Source: Bacillota bacterium
Lineage (GTDB): Bacteria > Bacillota > UBA994 > UBA5500
Direction of reading: 5' to 3'
NCBI GenBank assembly: GCA_012735505.1
Contig: JAAYHE010000017.1
Coordinates: forward strand, 1 to 64,000
DNA: 64,000 bases
This document shows, in pieces, positions 468-63,831 of this stretch (within the stretch, counting starts at the first letter, position 1; each line of letters begins with the position of its first letter). A program made the translations under genes and the position numbers. Below the pieces are notes generated by a model. That model searched no databases. It saw only the letters and a program-made list of their open reading frames with translations, and was not told where the DNA came from.

Positions 468-1943
468 TTGTATATTAAACTAGGGTTTCATAACGCACTT
501 GTTAACGGCCGTCGGACACTGATGGCTTTTTTTGTCACAGTAGCTGCGGCCTTAATTTTAACTGTTTCCCTATCTACATCTTCGGGCTTTCTACACGGGC
601 AACACTTGCTCCTCAGATATTATCTGGGCGGTGATATCACTATCCTGCCGGGAAAACTGGTATTCACGCAAGCAGAATTGAACAATGAAAATCTCGCCCT
701 AAGCTGGACCGATTACCCCGAGCCGTGGCAGAACGAGGCCCCGGGCTTCCTAGCGCGCCTGCCCTATGACGGGTGGTTTACTACAGAAGATCATGCCGGG
801 GCTGTCGACCTCGCCCGGGTGTCCGAGGCTGTGCAAGGGCAAGCAGCAGTACAGGCCCTCTATCCGTATTATGGAATACCGGCTATGGTGGAGTTTCCTG
901 GCCGCGCAGCTGCTGCCGGCAAACTGATAACTCTACGAGGCCGGGACTTGGACATAGACGAGTATTGGCAAATCGAAAAATATACCCCTAGTAACTCCGA
1001 TGTGTTTTTTACCATCAGCACCGGGGCAATGGTATCTGTCCCAGATCCTACCCCAGACGCTATGCTGAACATGCTGCAGGCCTTCCGCGCGTTAGATGGG
1101 CAGCCAGTCTGCGTCATCAATACAGCAGCTTTGCCTCACGGAGTGGCTGTTCCAGACGTGGGAGGAGAATTAACTGTTTATGTACCCAAGTTCGACGGGC
1201 TAGAGCAGCAATACGACTTTGAGCAACTAACCCCCATCACTCTGCAAGTAGTAGGACATATGAGTGTTGCCGTTTCTACCTATGAGATGGGTAACGGCTT
1301 TTGGATGCCCTACTATTGGCTAAGTGATGCCGTGCATGTGCCGTTAGCTACATGGCAGCAGATCGCCGCGCTAGCAGGCATCAACCCCGAGCCCCAGCAG
1401 GTGAGCCAGCTCGGGCTAGTGTTGAATGCTACCATGCTAGCTACCGAGCTAGCGCACGAGCTACGCCAAGCCTTGCCCGAATATACGGTACTCACTGCAG
1501 AACAAATGATGACTCTGGTAACTCGAGCCGTTAGCCAAGCCGGCTTACCGATCGATATGGACACTGCTTTTCATTTGCTGGTCATCTTGATTACCGGCCT
1601 GATAGTGGCAACCAATGCGTTCTTGCTGATAATGCAACGCCGTAAGGAAATTGCCATCCTGAAAAGTATAGGAGCGAGCCATTGGAATATAGTGACCCTA
1701 ATTTTGTCTGAGCTAGTAGCTCTTTCGTTGGTTGCTAGTTGTGTCGGTTGGCTCTCTTACCGGCTACCTATGGCCCTATCTCTGATGTTCTTTGAAGTTC
1801 CTTGGCAGGAAATCTGGCGGCAGACTCTCACCGTGGGAGGCCAAGTGACCGGGGTGTTAGTCTTAGGCACTGTTGTCTTTGGCCTCATCCCTGCGGTGCA
1901 TGCTGCCCGCACCCCAGTGATGGAGGTGTTGCGTGATGCGTAA
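468..1943 (+). CDS. FtsX/MacB-type ABC transporter permease (cassette 1, permease A1)
   Basis: Integral membrane subunit of an ABC exporter of the FtsX/MacB/LolC superfamily. An N-terminal membrane segment (about residues 17-39, with MAFFVTVAAALILTVSLS) is followed by a large extracytoplasmic domain of about 325 residues. Three membrane segments follow at about 370-395, 415-440 and 455-480. The cytoplasmic QRRKEIAILKSIGAS motif, typical of FtsX permeases, lies between segments 2 and 3. The TTG start is chosen because of GGAGAGGGGG at 451-460 and because both paralogues in the window begin with the same MYIKLGFHNA. The transported substrate is unknown. It is the first of a tandem pair (next copy 2000-3474), and another homologue lies at 58387-59817. 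Confidence 0.85.
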   Translation: MYIKLGFHNALVNGRRTLMAFFVTVAAALILTVSLSTSSGFLHGQHLLLRYYLGGDITILPGKLVFTQAELNNENLALSWTDYPEPWQNEAPGFLARLPYDGWFTTEDHAGAVDLARVSEAVQGQAAVQALYPYYGIPAMVEFPGRAAAAGKLITLRGRDLDIDEYWQIEKYTPSNSDVFFTISTGAMVSVPDPTPDAMLNMLQAFRALDGQPVCVINTAALPHGVAVPDVGGELTVYVPKFDGLEQQYDFEQLTPITLQVVGHMSVAVSTYEMGNGFWMPYYWLSDAVHVPLATWQQIAALAGINPEPQQVSQLGLVLNATMLATELAHELRQALPEYTVLTAEQMMTLVTRAVSQAGLPIDMDTAFHLLVILITGLIVATNAFLLIMQRRKEIAILKSIGASHWNIVTLILSELVALSLVASCVGWLSYRLPMALSLMFFEVPWQEIWRQTLTVGGQVTGVLVLGTVVFGLIPAVHAARTPVMEVLRDA

Positions 1944-1999
1944 AACGACACTGGGCCCGCCCTGCCGCTGCCTCATCAAACTGGGAGAGGAGTGTAGCC

Positions 2000-3474
2000 T
2001 TGTATATCAAACTCGGGTTTCACAACGCCCTCATAAATCGCGGGCGGACACTAATGGCTTTTTTGTCACAGCAGCTGCGGCCCTAATCTTGACTGTTTCC
2101 CTATCGACCTCGTCGGGTTTTTTGTATGGGCAGCATCTGCTGCTCAGGTATTATCTAGGCGGTGATATCACTATCCTGCCTGGAAAACTGGTCTTTACAC
2201 AAGAAGAATTGAACAGAGAAAATCTCGCCCTAAGCTGGGCCGATTACCCTGAACCCTGGCAGAACGAGGCCCCGGGCTTCCTGTCACGCTTGCCCTATGA
2301 CGGGTGGTTGACTACAGCAGGCTATGCCGAGGCTGTCGACCTCGCCCGGGTGGCCGAGGCTGTGCAAGGGCAAGCGGCAGTAGAGTTTCTCTACCCTTAT
2401 TATGGAATACCGGGTATTGTGGAGTTTCCTGGGCGGGGAGGGGCTGCCGGTAGACTGATAACTTTGCGCGGCCGGGCGCTGGATATAGACGAGTATTGGC
2501 AGATCGAAAAATATGCGCCTAGTAGTTCTGAGGAACTGTTTACTATCATGACTGGGGCAGTGGTGTCTACGCAAGATTTCACCCCAAACGATATGTTGAA
2601 CATGCTGCAAGCCTTCCGCGCTTTAGATGGCCAGCCGGTATGTATTATTAATACAGCTGCTTTACCTCAGGGAGTGCCTGCCCCAGACGTGGGAGAGGAA
2701 TTGACTGTTTACGTACCCAAATTCGATAGGGTTGCGCAAGAATACGACTTTGCCCACTTAACTCCTGTAAGCCTACAAGTGGTAGGTCATATGAGCGTTG
2801 CTGTTTCCACCTACGAGTTCGGCGCTGAAGCGCGCCTGCCCTATTATTGGCTGAGTGATGCCGTTCATGTGCCTCTTGATACATGGCAACAGATTGCAGC
2901 CCAAGTTGGCATCGACCCAGAACCACAGCAGGTGGGTCAGCTGGGACTAGTATTGAATGACACCACTCTAGCTACCGAGCTAGAGCATACGCTGCGTCAA
3001 GTTTTGCCCGAATATACGGTGCTTACCGCGGCGGAGATGATGACCTTGGTAAACCGGGCCACCAGCCAAGCCGGCTTACCGCTGGACATGGATTCGGCCT
3101 TTCATTTGCTGATCATCTTGATTACCGGGCTGATAGTAGCAACCAATGCGTTCTTGCTGATAATGCAACGCCGCAAGGAAATTGCCATTTTGAAAAGTAT
3201 AGGAGCGAGCCATTGGAATATAGTAACCCTTATTCTAGCCGAACTTGTTGCCCTTTCGTTGGCTGCGAGTTGTGTCGGCTGGCTCTTTTATCGGCTACCT
3301 ATGGTTATCTCTCTGGCAATGTTTGCAGTCCCCTGGCCGGAAATCTGGCGGCAGACCCTCACTGTTGGAGGGCAAGTGACCGGGGTGTTAGTCTTAGGCG
3401 CTGTCATTTTTGGCCTCATCCCTGCAGTGCATGCTGCCCGCACGCCAGTAATGGAGGTGTTACGTGATGCGTGA
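2000..3474 (+). CDS. FtsX/MacB-type permease, tandem duplicate with a one-base frameshift (permease A2)
   Basis: Close tandem copy of the preceding permease, with the same membrane layout and the QRRKEIAILKSIGAS motif. The homologous start is TTG at 2000 behind GGGAGAGGAG. Translation from it gives MYIKLGFHNALINRGRTLMAF and then runs into a stop, because the T-tract at 2059-2064 has six T where copy A1 has seven (527-533). Everything after the tract stays open in the -1 frame to 3474. An unbroken frame can be read from 1933, but its first 40 or so residues have no counterpart in the paralogues, so that start is not convincing. It may be a fresh pseudogene, a sequencing error, or a frame corrected by slippage at the T TTT TTG heptamer. 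The stop overlaps the start of the ATPase gene. Confidence 0.7.
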
Positions 3475-7711: not shown

Positions 7712-7893
7712 GGCGTTGCGTGTCATCCGTTAAAGCGCATAGGGAGCCATAAATCAAAAGAGCGAAGGAGCCAAGGAAACAGGAGCGGCCAGCAGTAAAT
7801 TTGGGCTCCCTAGACTTCTGGTCGCTCCCCTTGGCGACGAAGCTCTTACCGACAGATGGTGGCTATCAGCGCGCGAGGATGACACGCAACGCC
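7712..7893 (-). repeat. MITE-like element, family I, copy A (17-bp perfect terminal inverted repeats)
   Basis: The element begins with GGCGTTGCGTGTCATCC (7712-7728) and ends with its exact reverse complement, GGATGACACGCAACGCC (7877-7893). Inside is a second palindrome, GGAGCGGCCAG pairing with CTGGTCGCTCC. On the opposite strand it is closely similar, over about 165 bases, to the element at 45439-45611, and its end matches partial copies at 55236 and 63791. It encodes no plausible protein. I saw no clear target-site duplication. Confidence 0.75.
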
Positions 7894-7923: not shown

Positions 7924-8030
7924 CCCCGGTCGGCCTGCGGCCTCCCGGGCGGGCGCTATTCAAAATACCCAGCCCCGGAGGCTGGGTATTTTTCATGGCA
8001 TCCCTACCGATATAGCGCAATGTTGTGGGC
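7924..8030 (+). repeat. Dispersed repeat, family II, copy 1, with terminator hairpin
   Basis: It starts with CCCCGGTCGGCCTGCGGCCT and CCCGGGCGG, followed by ATTCAAAAT, a hairpin and TTTTTCATGGCATCC. It ends in a block with CCGATATAGCGCAATG. The hairpin is ATACCCAGCC (7965-7974) paired with GGCTGGGTAT (7980-7989), followed by T's. Copies lie at 11391-11494 (same strand) and 55415-55514 (opposite strand). Confidence 0.75.
7965..7994 (+). terminator. Rho-independent terminator inside repeat family II
   Basis: A 10-bp stem (7965-7974 with 7980-7989), a 5-base loop and a following T-run. It stands upstream of the ORP-like operon promoter, so it would insulate that operon from read-through. Confidence 0.6.
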
Positions 8031-8188
8031 ATCCTGGGGTATCCAAGACGCGCCCGCAATGGACCGGCCAGGGTTTGCGCTCTGCCGCCTCTTGGCGCTA
8101 TTTGCCGCATTGGTAACGGGCGTGATTCAAAATGGAGAAAGACTTTTGAGTAGTCCCCCTGTATGTGGGCTTTTTTTTTGCCAAGTTA

Positions 8189-8240
8189 TTGACATATGCT
8201 CATAACCCGCCTATACTATAAGTGAGCATATGTTCATAAC
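8189..8240 (+). promoter_or_regulatory. Sigma-A promoter with two direct-repeat operators for the ORP-like operon
   Basis: TTGACA (8189-8194) and TATACT (8212-8217) are separated by exactly 17 bases, a near-consensus vegetative promoter. CATATGCTCATAAC (8193-8206) overlaps the -35 element. CATATGTTCATAAC (8227-8240) lies just after the expected start point. The two differ at one base in 14 and start 34 bases apart. Each holds a TATG-NN-CATA palindrome. The layout fits repression from two sites. The DUF134 protein at the operon's end is a candidate regulator (inference). Confidence 0.75.
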
Positions 8241-8276
8241 GGTATACCGCATTTTGCTAGGAAGGGAGGTGTGCTT

Positions 8277-8552
8277 ATGCCACGTTTTGATGGAACAGGT
8301 CCATGGGGTATGGGCCCCATGACAGGGCGCGGGCATGGTTTCTGCGACCCTAGGGCTGGCTTTGCTAGAAGGGAGCGTCGCCCAGGCTACGGCTGGGGGC
8401 GTGGCTTTGGCTTTGCTTGCGGGTTTCGGCCGTACAGCAAACGCTTTAGCAAAGCAGTTTTGCAAGAAAAGATTTCGTTCTTAGAAGAGCGCTTGCATGA
8501 ACTCAAGCAGCTGCAAGAGGAACTGAACGAAAAAGAGCAAGACGAAAATTAA
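8277..8552 (+). CDS. DUF5320-type small Gly/Arg-rich protein
   Basis: First gene of the ORP-like operon, 91 residues. The N-terminal half is rich in Gly, Arg, Phe and Met (MPRFDGTGPWGMGPMTGRG). The C-terminal third is a charged coiled coil (about residues 60-90, LQEKISFLEERLHELKQLQ) matching DUF5320-type proteins, which commonly sit beside COG1433 (NifX/NifB-like) genes. The ATG at 8277 has GGGAGG 8 bases upstream; an in-frame GTG at 8271 is too close to the ribosome binding site. Function unknown; a structural or metal-handling partner of the downstream Fe-S proteins is possible. Confidence 0.75.
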   Translation: MPRFDGTGPWGMGPMTGRGHGFCDPRAGFARRERRPGYGWGRGFGFACGFRPYSKRFSKAVLQEKISFLEERLHELKQLQEELNEKEQDEN

Positions 8553-8553
8553 A

Positions 8554-8580
8554 CAGGGTAGGCAGTTGTTGCCTACCCTG
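8554..8580 (+). other. Intra-operon RNA hairpin
   Basis: CAGGGTAGGCA (8554-8564) pairs perfectly with TGCCTACCCTG (8570-8580) around a 5-base loop. There is no T-run, so it is more likely an mRNA stabiliser or processing site than a terminator. It separates the DUF5320 gene from the rest of the operon and could set different transcript levels. Confidence 0.55.
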
Positions 8581-8602
8581 AACCAGAAAGGGGATGCGCT
8601 AG

Positions 8603-8938
8603 ATGCGTATTTGTATTACCAGCCAAGGAGACACGATCGAAGCAGCTGCTGATGGAAGTTTTGGGCGAGCCGCTTACTTTATTATCTGGGAAAATGATGA
8701 GGTAGAGATTCTACCCAATCCCGGTTTTAAATCCGATCATGGTGCGGGTGTTGTCGCTAGCCAAGCCGTTATTGCTGCTAATGCCGATGTGTTAATTACC
8801 GGGCATTTGGGCCCGAATGCGGCTAAGGCGCTAAAGCCGAGCGGTGTCAAGGTGTATCGTCTGGAAGTGCCTGCGCCTACTGTTAAAGTAGTTTACCAAG
8901 CATATCTGGCCGGGGAATTAGAACCCCTCATCTGTTAG
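8603..8938 (+). CDS. COG1433 (NifX/NifB, dinitrogenase Fe-Mo cofactor-binding-like) protein
   Basis: A 111-residue single-domain protein of the NifX/NifB C-terminal superfamily, members of which bind Fe-S or Fe-Mo clusters; the Desulfovibrio orange protein belongs here. The features seen are MRICITSQGDTIEAAADGSFGRA, the GAGVVASQAVIAANADVLITG region and the HLGPNAAKAL loop. It has a single Cys at the very end, as in small family members that hold a cluster loosely. ATG 8603 is preceded by AAAGGGGATG. It is followed after 4 bases by a MinD-type ATPase, implying co-translation. Confidence 0.8.
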   Translation: MRICITSQGDTIEAAADGSFGRAAYFIIWENDEVEILPNPGFKSDHGAGVVASQAVIAANADVLITGHLGPNAAKALKPSGVKVYRLEVPAPTVKVVYQAYLAGELEPLIC

Positions 8939-8942
8939 TCCG

Positions 8943-9776
8943 ATGAACATTGCAGTCTTAAGTGGTAAAGGGGGCACCGGCAAAACTACAGTCGCAGTTA
9001 ATTTAGCGCGGGTGCTTCATTGTCGTTATGTAGATTCTGACGTAGAGGCCCCTAATGGTTTCTTGTTTTTGCAGCCCGACATACAGGATAAAGCAGATGT
9101 CTCAGTGCAAATACCCCAGATCGATGAGCAGCGTTGCAATTATTGCCTCGCCTGTGTAAAGCATTGCCAGTTCAATGCTTTATTTGGAACTGATAGCAGT
9201 ATCGTTTTTTTTGAGAAACTCTGTCACAGTTGCGGTCTTTGCTCTTTGGTTTGTAAGCAGAATGCTATCAAGGAAGTACCCCGCCGTGTTGGCTACGTGG
9301 AATTTGGTAGCAGTGCCGGAGCAGAGTGCTGGCAGGGCGTACTCATACCCGGTGAGCCAGTAACTGGCCCTGTAATCGATGCACTCAAGGCTAGGCTGGA
9401 TGGAGACTTAAGTATAATCGATTGTCCTCCGGGTAGCTCATGTAGTGTGGTGGCAGCTGCAGACAAAACCGACTTAGCCTTGCTGGTTACCGAACCAACT
9501 CCATTTGGCGTACACGACTTGCATATGGCGGTTCAGGTTACCGAAAAATTAAATTTACCGCGAGCTATTATCATTAATCGTTCGGAAGGACAAGACGCCA
9601 TTATCCAAGATTACGCTAATGCAACTGGCATCCCTATTATAGGGCGGTTGCCTTTTAGTCTAGAAGCTGCGCAGATCGTGAGCCGGGGAGAGCTTCTAGT
9701 TGACAAGGAAGAATGGCGCCAGCGATTTCAGAACTTAGCTGAGGCAGTAAGGGAGTTGATTGCATGCACCTCTTGA
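8943..9776 (+). CDS. MinD/Mrp-family P-loop ATPase with inserted 2x[4Fe-4S] ferredoxin domain (copy 1)
   Basis: Deviant Walker A motif GKGGTGKTTVAVNLA at the N-terminus. Two ferredoxin cysteine clusters are inserted near residues 60-110 (CNYCLACVKHC and CHSCGLCSLVC, each CxxCxxCxxxC-like). The central Walker motif is IIDCPPGSSC. Members (COG1149) bind ATP and Fe-S clusters and are thought to act in cluster assembly or electron supply; the ORP operon of Desulfovibrio carries two such genes. The 3' end overlaps the next, homologous gene by 13 bases. Exact role unknown. Confidence 0.85.
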   Translation: MNIAVLSGKGGTGKTTVAVNLARVLHCRYVDSDVEAPNGFLFLQPDIQDKADVSVQIPQIDEQRCNYCLACVKHCQFNALFGTDSSIVFFEKLCHSCGLCSLVCKQNAIKEVPRRVGYVEFGSSAGAECWQGVLIPGEPVTGPVIDALKARLDGDLSIIDCPPGSSCSVVAAADKTDLALLVTEPTPFGVHDLHMAVQVTEKLNLPRAIIINRSEGQDAIIQDYANATGIPIIGRLPFSLEAAQIVSRGELLVDKEEWRQRFQNLAEAVRELIACTS

Positions 9777-10633
9777 TCGTAAGTGGTAAAGGAGGAACGG
9801 GCAAGACAACTTTGGCTGCTGCTTTGGCCCAGCTATCAGGTTCTGAAATGGTAATCGATTGCGACGTAGAAGCTTCTAACCTGCATTTATTATTGGCAGA
9901 AAATGACTTGCAGAGGCAGCAATTCTCAGGAGCTAAGATAGCCAAAGAACAGGCTAACGATTGTAGGCGCTGTGGCTTGTGTACCGATTATTGCCGTTTT
10001 GGAGCTATCCACGATGGCCAGGTTGATTCTAACCTGTGTGAGGGGTGTGGAGTTTGTGTATACGTTTGTCCTGAAAACCATCTCGTCTTGACAGATATGG
10101 TGACTGGGACCTGCGTTCTTAGCCAAACCTCAAACGGTTTAATGAGTCGAGCAGAGATGGAGCCTGGAGCTGAGGGTTCGGGTAAATTGGTCACTGAAAT
10201 AAGGCGTCAGGGCCGCTTGGCGGTTCCCAACGCCCAATTGACCCTTCTTGATGGCCCGCCTGGGTTAGGCTGTGCAGTAATAGCTTCCATGACGGGTTGC
10301 CAATTAGCGTTAGTAGTAGCAGAAGCTAGCTTGGCTGGTTTGAGTGATGCTAGGCGCATTTTAGCTCTACTAAAACAGATGGAAGTTGAGGCCTTATTGT
10401 GCATCAACCGCTATGACATTAACCTCGAGGCAAGCCTGGAAATTGAACAATTATGTGACCAACAGCAGATCCCTCTGGTAGGCAAAATACCTCACGACCC
10501 TATGGTACGAAGGGCGCAGCGGCACAATCAATCGGTGCTCGAGTATCCAACAAGTCCGGCCGCCCAAGCAATTTTTGCGCTGTGGAAAGAACTAAGATCG
10601 CGGATAGCGAAGCAAGGAGGAAGCATAGAATGA
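9764..10633 (+). CDS. MinD/Mrp-family P-loop ATPase with inserted 2x[4Fe-4S] ferredoxin domain (copy 2)
   Basis: Paralogue of the preceding gene, 289 residues. Walker A is SGKGGTGKTTLAAALA. The ferredoxin insert has CRRCGLCTDYC and CEGCGVCVYVC. The central ATPase motif is LLDGPPGLGC. The two ATPases are consistently paired in ORP-type operons and may heterodimerise (family knowledge plus inference). Its stop codon overlaps the start of the next gene as ATGA (10630-10633), a sign of translational coupling. Confidence 0.85.
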   Translation: MHLLIVSGKGGTGKTTLAAALAQLSGSEMVIDCDVEASNLHLLLAENDLQRQQFSGAKIAKEQANDCRRCGLCTDYCRFGAIHDGQVDSNLCEGCGVCVYVCPENHLVLTDMVTGTCVLSQTSNGLMSRAEMEPGAEGSGKLVTEIRRQGRLAVPNAQLTLLDGPPGLGCAVIASMTGCQLALVVAEASLAGLSDARRILALLKQMEVEALLCINRYDINLEASLEIEQLCDQQQIPLVGKIPHDPMVRRAQRHNQSVLEYPTSPAAQAIFALWKELRSRIAKQGGSIE

Positions 10634-10959
10634 AAATAGCCATACCTGCGCAGAACGAACAAGTGGCAGCTCATTTCGGCCATTGCCCCGAATTTATGTT
10701 AGCAAATGTGGTTGATGGTCGCTTAGGAGAACTCGTTAGCGTCCCGAACCCCGGGCATCGGCCTGGGTTTTTACCGCAGTGGCTAGGAGAGCAGGGAGTT
10801 ACAGTCGTGATTGCCGGTGGGATAGGAGCTAGCGCAATGCAGATTTTTCAACAGCAGGGTATAGAAGTTGTTGTTGGTGTACAAGGAAAAGTTACAACTG
10901 CCCTCGAACAATACCTAAAGGGTGAGCTCCGTCCCGATAATAATATTTGTCATCATTAG
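10630..10959 (+). CDS. COG1433 (NifX/NifB-like) protein, second copy
   Basis: 109 residues, beginning MKIAIPAQNEQVAAHFGHCPEFM, the classic start of COG1433 proteins with the conserved HFGHC. A GGIGASAMQIFQQQGIEVV segment and a short C-terminal VTTALEQYLKGEL follow. The ATG at 10630 overlaps the previous stop and follows AGGAGG; the upstream in-frame ATG at 10582 lies inside the ATPase gene. It is a candidate cluster carrier for the two Fe-S ATPases upstream. The HFGHC motif distinguishes it from the first COG1433 protein. Confidence 0.85.
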   Translation: MKIAIPAQNEQVAAHFGHCPEFMLANVVDGRLGELVSVPNPGHRPGFLPQWLGEQGVTVVIAGGIGASAMQIFQQQGIEVVVGVQGKVTTALEQYLKGELRPDNNICHH

Positions 10960-10985
10960 GTTATTTTTGTTTCCAGGAGGTTGTT

Positions 10986-11366
10986 ATGGCAGCGAGACCG
11001 CGTAAACATCGAGTCGTAGAAAGAGAACCCATTCATTCTGTTTTCAAACCAGCCGGAGTGCCTAATGCAGCCCTGGACGAGATAGTGTTAACGGTGGAGC
11101 AGTTCGAAGCCATTAGGTTGAAAGATCTGGAAGGCTTAGAGCAGGAGGCTTGCGCCGAACTGATGCATATCTCGCGCCCTACCTTCCAGCGTGTGTTAAC
11201 GCGCGCGCGGGAGAGTGTGGCTCGTGCATTGGTAGAAGGCAAAGCTTTGCGTATTGAAGGCGGTCATTACCGCCTGCGACAGCAACTAGCCCCGGGCTGC
11301 GGGCGCGGCCACCATCGCAGACGGCATAGGCAGGGTCGGTGGTCTCACAAGGGTGCAAGAGAATAA
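10986..11366 (+). CDS. DUF134 (COG1342) predicted DNA-binding protein
   Basis: 126 residues. The N-terminus MAARPRKHRVVEREP and the sigma-70 region 4-like helix-turn-helix (LKDLEGLEQEACAELMHISR followed by PTFQRVLTRARESVA) match DUF134. The C-terminus is His/Arg/Gly-rich (GRGHHRRRHRQGRW), possibly metal-binding. ATG 10986 has AGGAGG 5-6 bases upstream. DUF134 genes accompany COG1433 genes in many anaerobes. I infer that it is the operon's own regulator acting on the duplicated CATATG-TCATAAC sites at 8193-8240; this is not shown. Confidence 0.85.
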   Translation: MAARPRKHRVVEREPIHSVFKPAGVPNAALDEIVLTVEQFEAIRLKDLEGLEQEACAELMHISRPTFQRVLTRARESVARALVEGKALRIEGGHYRLRQQLAPGCGRGHHRRRHRQGRWSHKGARE

Positions 11367-11390
11367 GGGGCGAAAAAGTTTAGCGCGCAT

Positions 11391-11494
11391 CCCCGGTCGG
11401 CCTGCGGCCTCCCGGGCGGTTGCAATTCAAAATGTCCAGCCCTAAGTGAGCTGGACATTTTTCATGACGCCCTACAGATACTGCATACTGTGGG
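11391..11494 (+). repeat. Dispersed repeat, family II, copy 2, with terminator hairpin
   Basis: Same organisation as 7924-8030: CCCCGGTCGGCCTGCGGCCT, CCCGGGCGG, ATTCAAAAT, hairpin, TTTTTCATG, then CCTACAGATACTGCATACTG. The hairpin arms are AATGTCCAGC (11431-11440) and GCTGGACATT (11450-11459). They differ from copy 1 at paired positions, so pairing is kept. The element ends the ORP-like operon. Confidence 0.75.
11431..11462 (+). terminator. Terminator of the ORP-like operon (inside repeat family II)
   Basis: 10-bp stem (11431-11440 with 11450-11459) followed by a T-run, 65 bases after the DUF134 stop codon. Confidence 0.7.
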
Positions 11495-12099: not shown

Positions 12100-12105
12100 A
12101 AGGTT

Positions 12106-12351
12106 AATAGCAATGAAGGGGAGCTAGTACTAAACAAGCTGGTTACAGAGAGCTGGGAATGGTGGAAGCCCGGTACCGAGGCGGTTTAGGAAGAGGCCCC
12201 GGAGCTGCAGGTCGAAATGAGTAGTAGACCGAGCCGGCACCTCACCGTTAACGAGGGAGGCGATTCTTAGCCTCAATTTGAGTAGGCTGCCGTAGGCAGC
12301 CATAGGGTGGTACCGTGAGCAAAGCTCGCCCCTAAAGTGGGGCGGGCTTTT
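12106..12351 (+). promoter_or_regulatory. T-box riboswitch leader of gltX (Glu, specifier GAA)
   Basis: It holds the conserved T-box AGGGTGGTACCGTG (12304-12317), which pairs with the uncharged tRNA acceptor end. A terminator stem follows: GCTCGCCCC 12324-12332 with GGGGCGGGC 12339-12347, then T's. Upstream are the stem I apical features AGAGAGC and GGTGGAAGCCC. The specifier is read as GAA at 12190-12192, 8 bases before GGAGCTG. In the lysS leader the triplet at the same spacing is AAG, which supports this register. Uncharged tRNA-Glu should favour read-through into gltX. Confidence 0.88.
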
Positions 12352-43850: not shown

Positions 43851-44110
43851 ATAAAGCTTTTCCTCCCTGAAGGGACGAAAAGCTGTTTCGCGGTACCACC
43901 CTGCTTGGCTGTAAAGATTACAACCCGCTTTACATCCTGATAACGGTAGGATTACCGGTGGGCTCGGTCCAGGTCAGAACGACCTGTTTTTCTCACCCCA
44001 GCTCCACGGCTTTCTTCCAAGAGCCTTCATACCGCGCTTCCACCAGCACGCGGTTCTCTGGGAATCCGGTCATCTTGTACTTCTCCGCTTCATAGCTTGT
44101 CTGCCAAGAT
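43851..44110 (-). promoter_or_regulatory. T-box riboswitch leader of lysS (Lys, specifier AAG)
   Basis: The reverse strand carries the T-box AGGGTGGTACCGCG (43889-43902). The terminator stem follows: AGCTTTTC-TCCCT with AGGGACGAAAAGCT, 43855-43884, then T-rich sequence. Upstream are the stem I features CAGAGAACCGCG and GGTGGAAGCGCGG. The specifier is AAG (complement of 44014-44016), 8 bases before GGAGCTG, exactly where the gltX leader has GAA. Uncharged tRNA-Lys should favour read-through into lysS. The leader starts about 50 bases after the upstream gene's stop. Confidence 0.88.
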
Positions 44111-45309: not shown

Positions 45310-45782
45310 ACTAGTCTCACCTCCTCGCGGCAGCTGCAGCCAACAAACTAGGGGCCGAGTTCAACCCTGCTGGCTAGTTTTCCCCAGCCTTGGCGCAGGC
45401 ATACGAGGCGTGTTCGTGCCCCTTATCTGCCTGCCGCTGGCGCTGGGTCATCCTCGCGCGCTGGTAGCCACCGACTGTCGGTAGGAGCTCCGTCGGGGAG
45501 CGGCCAGAAGTCTGGGCGCCGTAACTTACTGCTGGCCGCTCCTGTATCCTTGGCTCCTCCGCTCTTTTCATTTATGGCTCCCCAAGCGCTTTACGGATGA
45601 CGCGCACCGCCGCTAGTGCTGGAGGGCTCGCCCCTACAGATATAGCGCCATCTTGGCGAAACGTGTAGGGGCATTTTGAAACACTCCCGCCACAGCCCGA
45701 AACATGAGTGCAGGCAAGGGCAGCACGCACGCTAGCATACCCAGGATAGGATTGGGACAAGAGCCTCTTTCTCTAACCCAAC
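45310..45782. other. Intergenic region with MITE-like element copy B
   Basis: About 470 bases upstream of the desulfurase-like gene, with no believable gene. Most of it is the family I repeat (45439-45611). A short block CCTACAGATATAGCG at about 45632-45647 resembles the end of repeat family II. Confidence 0.6.
45439..45611 (+). repeat. MITE-like element, family I, copy B
   Basis: Closely similar to the reverse complement of 7712-7893 across its length. The ends are imperfect inverted repeats: GGCGCTGGGTCATCC at 45439-45453 and GGATGACGCGCACCGCC at 45595-45611. The internal palindrome is GGAGCGGCCAG (45497-45507) with CTGGCCGCTCC (45532-45542). It lies just upstream of the desulfurase-like gene. 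No coding capacity. Confidence 0.75.
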
Positions 45783-55178: not shown

Positions 55179-55230
55179 GCGATTTTGCTGAAGACATAGC
55201 GGTCGGTCGCGGTCATGTTTGCGTGCTTTG

Positions 55231-55304
55231 CCGCTGGCGTTGCGGTCATCCCCGCGCGCAGGTAGCCAGCGACTGTGGGTAAGGGCTTCGTCGTCAAGGG
55301 GAGC
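55231..55304 (+). repeat. MITE-like element, family I, partial copy C
   Basis: It carries one end, GGCGTTGCGGTCATCC (55236-55251), followed by the CGCGCGCAGGTAGCC and CGACTGTGGGTAAG blocks as in copies A and B. Similarity stops after AAGGGGAGC. The other terminal repeat is missing. Confidence 0.65.
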
Positions 55305-55343
55305 ATCAACCGACTGATTGTTGGTACATTGTGGGCGCACTTT

Positions 55344-55372
55344 GGAGGAAATTGCCTAAGGCAATTTCCTCC
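55344..55372. repeat. Perfect 13-bp inverted repeat (hairpin)
   Basis: GGAGGAAATTGCC (55344-55356) and GGCAATTTCCTCC (55360-55372) with a 3-base loop, no T-run after. Its sequence is unlike repeat families I and II. Confidence 0.6.
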
Positions 55373-55414
55373 GCAGGGCGCCCCTACCATATCCCATGCA
55401 CTTGGCAGACTATC

Positions 55415-55514
55415 CAACAAAATGCTATATCGGTAGGCGACTTTAAAAATGAACAGCCTCTCGGGCTAGGTATCTTGAAAGACGCCCGCCCGGGAGGCCG
55501 TAGGCCGGCCGGGG
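55415..55514 (-). repeat. Dispersed repeat, family II, copy 3
   Basis: The reverse strand reads CCCCCGGCCGGCCTACGGCC, CCCGGGCGGGCG, a decayed hairpin (AGCC-cgaga-GGCT core), ATTTTTAAAG and CCTACCGATATAGC. It matches 7924-8030 throughout. The hairpin arms are partly mismatched in this copy. Confidence 0.7.
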
Positions 55515-63745: not shown

Positions 63746-63784
63746 AGGCACAGTGGGCCGCGGCCGAGCCCTGCATGCCTTCTT

Positions 63785-63831
63785 GCTGCTGGCATTGCGG
63801 TCATCCTCGCGCGCTGGTAGCAAGATGTCCA
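63785..63831 (+). repeat. MITE-like element, family I, partial copy D
   Basis: One end, GGCATTGCGGTCATCC (63791-63806), followed by TCGCGCGCTGGTAGC as in copy B. Similarity then stops and a terminator hairpin begins directly. Confidence 0.6.

Follow-up and report, generated by a model that had tools for sequence, protein, structure and literature searches.

What kind of element carries a stem whose two arms differ together from copy to copy, and what keeps these arms paired? The question is raised by three copies of a repeat, family II, in the window (the whole stretch of 64,000 nucleotides analysed here; contig C59 of an assembly of 1.92 Mb in 87 contigs, 98.9% complete). From copies 1 and 2 the initial annotation had deduced a terminator stem with compensatory changes. 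The three copies and the stem arms of copies 1 and 2 are as it described them, with coordinates and blastn homology in agreement: within the window, copy 1 matches copies 2 and 3 with E-values of about 1e-18 to 1e-19. As proposed, copies were collected genome-wide; DNA, profile and covariance-model searches retrieved ~52 distinct loci genome-wide, counted as non-overlapping matches. Given these E-values and the number of loci, homology of the copies is beyond chance. The reading that we favour, at a probability of roughly 0.6, takes family II for a non-autonomous REP-like element with a GTAG tag, once mobilised and bearing a terminator-like apex on its first hairpin.

Read on the GTAG strand, each copy consists of GTAG, a 19-pair hairpin of about 53 nt (hp1) and a second hairpin (hp2; Table 1). 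On this strand the consensus runs GTAGGGGCGTCATGAAAAATGAACAGCC...GGCTGGGCATTTTGAATCACGCCCG and then CCCGGGAGGCCGTAGGCCGACCGGGG, in many cases extended by AACAGTTGCCCCAGGCC. In hp1 the segments GGGCGT, AT, AAAATG and CAGCC each pair with a partner strand, and hp2 folds as CCCGG GA GGCC GTA GGCC GA CCGGG. The composition of hp1 is that of the usual short REP stem (GGGGCG...CGCCC) topped by an additional hairpin. Folding is strong both as RNA (consensus z = -3.6, copy 1 z = -5.1) and as DNA (z = -4.1). At two loci (C76 205 and C20 5923) the family II flank and hp2 are kept with a different hp1, which resembles an exchange of hairpin modules.

Table 1. Positions of family II copies and of other features; positions are those of the window unless a contig is named, and for the copies the strand is the one that bears GTAG.
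Feature	Position	Strand	Remarks
Copy 1 of GTAG element	7924-8007	-	GTAG 8007-8004; hp1 8003-7951, central site paired; hp2 7949-7925
Copy 1 stem arms	7965-7973 / 7981-7989		ATACCCAGC / GCTGGGTAT
Copy 1 terminator-like hairpin, non-GTAG strand	7961-7994	+	CCCAGCC...GGCTGGG then TATTTTT; predicted function
Copy 2 of GTAG element	11391-11475	-	GTAG 11475-11472 (one G shorter); hp1 to about 11418, outer stem degenerate, central site paired; hp2 11416-11392
Copy 2 stem arms	11432-11440 / 11450-11458		ATGTCCAGC / GCTGGACAT
Copy 3 of GTAG element	55433-55514	+	GTAG 55433-55436; hp1 to 55487, common central mismatch; hp2 55489-55513
Copy 3 stem arms, inverted	55449-55457 / 55465-55473		ATGAACAGC / GCTAGGTAT
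Inverted partner of copy 3	55333-55387	-	Hairpin of the second GTAG type (GTAGGGGCGCCCTGCGGAGGAAATTGCC...); arranged tail to tail with copy 3, whose GTAG is 45 nt away
Second GTAG hairpin type, sites	55333-55387; C11 16839, 22780, 28078; C76 12739		
Solo hairpins with copy 1 stem	C33 5915-5939; C76 5524-5549; C77 11906-11930		
Mosaic repeat family	7731-7883; 45437-45593; 55228-55276; 63783-63824		
T-box leader	12104-12336	+	
T-box leader	43868-44102	-	

Covariation was assessed at 28 pairs in 38 copies, using an alignment made free of structure. Standard pairs occupy 93.2% of the cells at these pairs. Changes on both sides occur at 10 of the 28 pairs and in 50 cells, against shuffled means of 5.1 and 18.0, and none of 500 shuffles reached values as high; the covariation score is 0.167, compared with 0.084 in shuffled data and 0.02-0.04 for slid structures. 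This excess supports structural constraint well, and does so across the whole family, beyond the two copies of the earlier suggestion. Variation is greatest at pairs 12-52 (A-U, U-A, C-G), 25-39 (A-U, C-G) and 10-54 (U-A, C-G), which change state about seven, eight and six times, respectively, on trees that omit the columns concerned and that, built from 100 columns, are weak. These repeated changes indicate that the pair states do not derive from a single change passed on by descent. Pairs 10-54 and 12-52 belong to the lower stem, beyond the stem that the initial annotation read as a terminator, and covariation in hp2 is small (one of nine pairs). Family II is a real repeat family with structural constraint, a small hairpin element, probably once mobile, whose copies are dispersed between genes.

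The constraint extends to positions that do not pair canonically. A central AA/GG-type mismatch, mostly A.G/A.G or A.A/A.G, is kept in 32 of the 38 copies, and the site is fully paired in six, including copies 1 and 2. Below it, hp1 has a tandem G.A/A.G (of the 38 copies, 35 keep G14.A50 and 36 keep A15.G49), and hp2 contains another, kept in 27 and 26 copies. Covariation in the lower stem together with conserved non-canonical G.A pairs suits a REP-type recognition hairpin. The initial annotation had called the stem of copy 3 partly decayed, which is mistaken: both in the left arm, ATGAACAGC, and in the mismatch, copy 3 shows the majority state of the family, and copies 1 and 2 are the minority.

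Several traits link family II to the GTAG REP superfamily and its REPINs (PMC3733652, PMC3116915). GTAG or a close variant directly precedes the imperfect palindrome, dozens of copies are extragenic, and 12 of 40 copies, against an expectation of about 2, have a tail-to-tail CTAC partner on the upstream side of GTAG at 43-49 nt, a spacing similar to that of known dimers. Complementary stem variants, dimers and a location between tandem or convergent genes have likewise been described for GTAG REPs, and complex longer loops for some of their families (PMC3733652). A second GTAG hairpin type (GTAGGGGCGCCCCGCGGGGAAATTGCC...GGCAATTT...GGCGCGCCC) is common in the genome and forms hybrid tail-to-tail dimers with family II. 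Where records match, the relatives of the same family are MAGs of uncultured Bacillota; two same-family relatives (G001 and G003) contain simple GTAGGGGCG hairpins of the form GTAGGGGCGAGGC...GCCTCGCCC, some of them tail to tail, and at three G003 loci a short GTAG hairpin is combined with an hp2-like hairpin. The GTAG hairpins of the relatives lack the terminator-like apex, and family II itself gave no DNA match in 30 relatives and no exact 21-mer match in the GTDB genomes, a set from which its own genome was possibly left out. In the E. coli REP, GTAG is also followed by a stem that is broken by a conserved AA-type 2x2 mismatch, and in both systems most copies retain mismatches that could easily be paired. 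Correction of the AA-GC mismatch conserved in the E. coli REP is reported to affect TnpAREP activity severely, and the unpaired state to matter (PMC8266576). Family II differs from this system in its sequence, its longer stem, its two or three mismatch sites and the lack of a known cognate enzyme. A REP/REPIN element thus fits the GTAG tag, the mismatches kept from copy to copy, the dimers, the extragenic position and the simpler GTAG hairpins in the same family.

Under the favoured reading, the family II hairpin would have been mobilised as single-stranded DNA by a Y1 (REP-associated) transposase, which would since have been lost from the genome or be missing from the assembly. A profile search and a search with a relative's protein as query, the latter run without a positive control, revealed no Y1/RAYT transposase in the 87 contigs. 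Two relatives, G002 and G003, encode Y1 transposases of 255-283 aa that are extended at the C-terminus, and GTAGGGGC hairpins flank none of the relatives' Y1 genes examined, these included. A Y1 gene flanked by its repeat, as in a REPtron, was therefore seen neither in the own genome nor among these genes. Two further points speak against the REP reading: no insertion was seen against an empty site, and hp1 exceeds the 20-40 nt typical of GTAG REP palindromes. In contrast to standard elements, its stem has a terminator-like apex and is followed by a second hairpin. Because hp1 is too long, family II is classed here as a REP-like variant rather than a standard member; and since no transposase was found, the relatives' Y1 genes lack REP flanks and the length of hp1 is unusual, we infer, and do not assert, Y1 mobilisation.

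The gene context brings in the second face of the element. Context was tested on 395 kb of stretches selected for their copies, and genes were called by a simple home-made program that overlooked some of them, such as the DUF134 gene at 10947-11366. All 41 placed copies are extragenic, 28 between tandem, 12 between convergent and one between divergent genes; the excess of convergent over divergent placement (p = 1e-6 in comparison with long, copy-free intergenic regions) bears out the expected position at gene ends. The hp2 side is closer to gene 3' ends (p = 0.009), and orientation relative to tandem genes is unbiased (15 vs 13). In the window, copy 2 lies 25 nt past a DUF134 gene (+) and 28-30 nt past an OsmC gene (-), and copy 3 between the convergent genes for a YhfC-like protein (+) and an ABC transporter (-). 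The location at 3' ends alone does not show termination, because it is also expected if insertions into promoters are lost. On the non-GTAG strand, the GC stem runs into UUCAUUUUU close to the 3' ends of genes. This makes a terminator role of the hairpin plausible, and the top hairpin of hp1 could end transcription there. The mean U-tract tail score is 2.37 on this strand vs 0.44 on the GTAG strand, and a terminator consensus scan lists copies 1 and 3. With the copy masked, none of the 14 convergent gene ends that lie close to a copy had another terminator vs about 8 of 14 controls, these 14 ends being partly the same regions counted twice; at tandem gene ends there was no difference (6/18 near a copy vs about 35/101 controls). 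Bidirectional intrinsic terminators similarly have a GC stem between an A-tract and a U-tract at gene ends, but the family II stem belongs to a dispersed unit of two hairpins with a GTAG tag, and most copies have a good U-tract on one strand only. Three solo hairpins share the copy 1 stem (ATACCCAGC/GCTGGGTAT) but stand outside any intact family II unit, and they are absent from 20 relatives. Two lie close to a called gene end, at 3 and 9 nt, and the third directly follows a likely stop. The three fit a stand-alone action of the hairpin as terminator. Either the solo form or the REP form may be the earlier.

These observations could also be accommodated if family II were nothing but an intrinsic terminator, dispersed by recombination or gene conversion, with an incidental likeness to GTAG elements. 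The U-tract on one strand, the copies at gene 3' ends, the convergent ends devoid of other terminators and the solo hairpins all agree with this. Yet the covariation at 10-54 and 12-52 and the conserved G.A pairs lie outside the terminator hairpin, a terminator has no use for GTAG, tail-to-tail dimers or hp2, and the relatives carry GTAG hairpins that lack its apex, which renders the explanation rather improbable. The moved terminator of the initial annotation accordingly survives as a plausible terminator on a dispersed element, but not as the whole story. Its other proposal, a small structured or regulatory RNA, would account for the conserved, strongly folding structure and its covariation, but is the least probable of the readings weighed here. 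Family II sites gave no match to any described Rfam family, the genes adjoining them in the window (aminotransferase, FeMo-Co-domain, DUF134, OsmC, YhfC and ABC transporter) are unrelated to one another, copies beside tandem genes point in either direction and no associated promoter has been shown; no sign of a separate small RNA emerged.

A different alternative concerns the pairing itself, which might be maintained by mutation instead of selection if template switching or gene conversion in a quasi-palindrome copied one arm from the other. Indeed, the left arm is the exact complement of the own right arm in each of copies 1 and 2. The right arm of copy 2, GGACAT, co-occurs with the mismatched left arm in eight other copies, the nearest mismatched counterpart of the copy 1 right arm is found in copy 3, and hp2 has become a perfect palindrome in a few copies (C76_21351 and C73_19000). 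Such a process should, however, erase mismatches, and the tandem G.A persists in 35-36 and the central mismatch in 32 of the 38 copies. One copy (C69 10334) has even exchanged A.G/A.G for G.A/G.A at the central site, where both sides changed and the purine-purine mispairs stayed. As a general explanation it is thus unlikely, even more so than a terminator alone, although template switching may be the origin of the paired state in copies 1 and 2 themselves. Since the common form is mismatched and each arm complements its own partner, one arm change per copy is enough to produce the double differences between them. The arms do differ at two pairs with pairing kept, as had been noted, but a compensatory series is not supported, and the inference drawn from these two copies was partly misleading because the usual stem of the family is mismatched. 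Whether selection for pairing or template switching changed the arms, the data favour neither. More generally, apparent compensatory changes between two copies can stem from a mismatched common form.

Returning to the REP-like element, copies 1 and 2 would, by analogy only, make poor transposase substrates, and we infer that they are better-paired copies that have lost mobility. The paired copies are not closer to gene ends than the others (p = 0.26) and not more often convergent (p = 1.0). The element may have spread terminators across the genome. A bolder scenario, which we regard as tentative and rather doubtful, is that an intrinsic terminator was captured by the hairpin apex of a REP-type element and travelled with it to dozens of gene ends; one hairpin would then be a transposase substrate, mismatched, on one strand and a terminator on the other, and the paired copies, 1 and 2 among them, would have lost mobility and become domesticated as terminators. 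Published precedents for terminator-carrying repeats may exist, the literature covered here consisting mostly of titles and abstracts. Family II is best read as a variant of the already described GTAG REP elements, and its unusual trait is the two-hairpin build with a terminator-like apex; it adds an elaborate family of this REP-like kind for an uncultured Bacillota lineage. Most of its copies keep, and a few pair, a mismatch of the sort that REP processing in E. coli requires, and this natural set of variants makes a possible trade-off between mobility and the strength of the terminator testable.

Other features of the window include a mosaic repeat family (TGACGCGC..., GGTAGC..CGACTG..GGTAGGAGC) that often adjoins family II copies, and two T-box leaders, the one on the plus strand preceding a gene for a class I glutamyl/glutaminyl-type tRNA synthetase. 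At 528-3136, two neighbouring open frames share 300-nt stretches of 80-87% identity at a spacing of 1531 nt, a tandem gene duplication.
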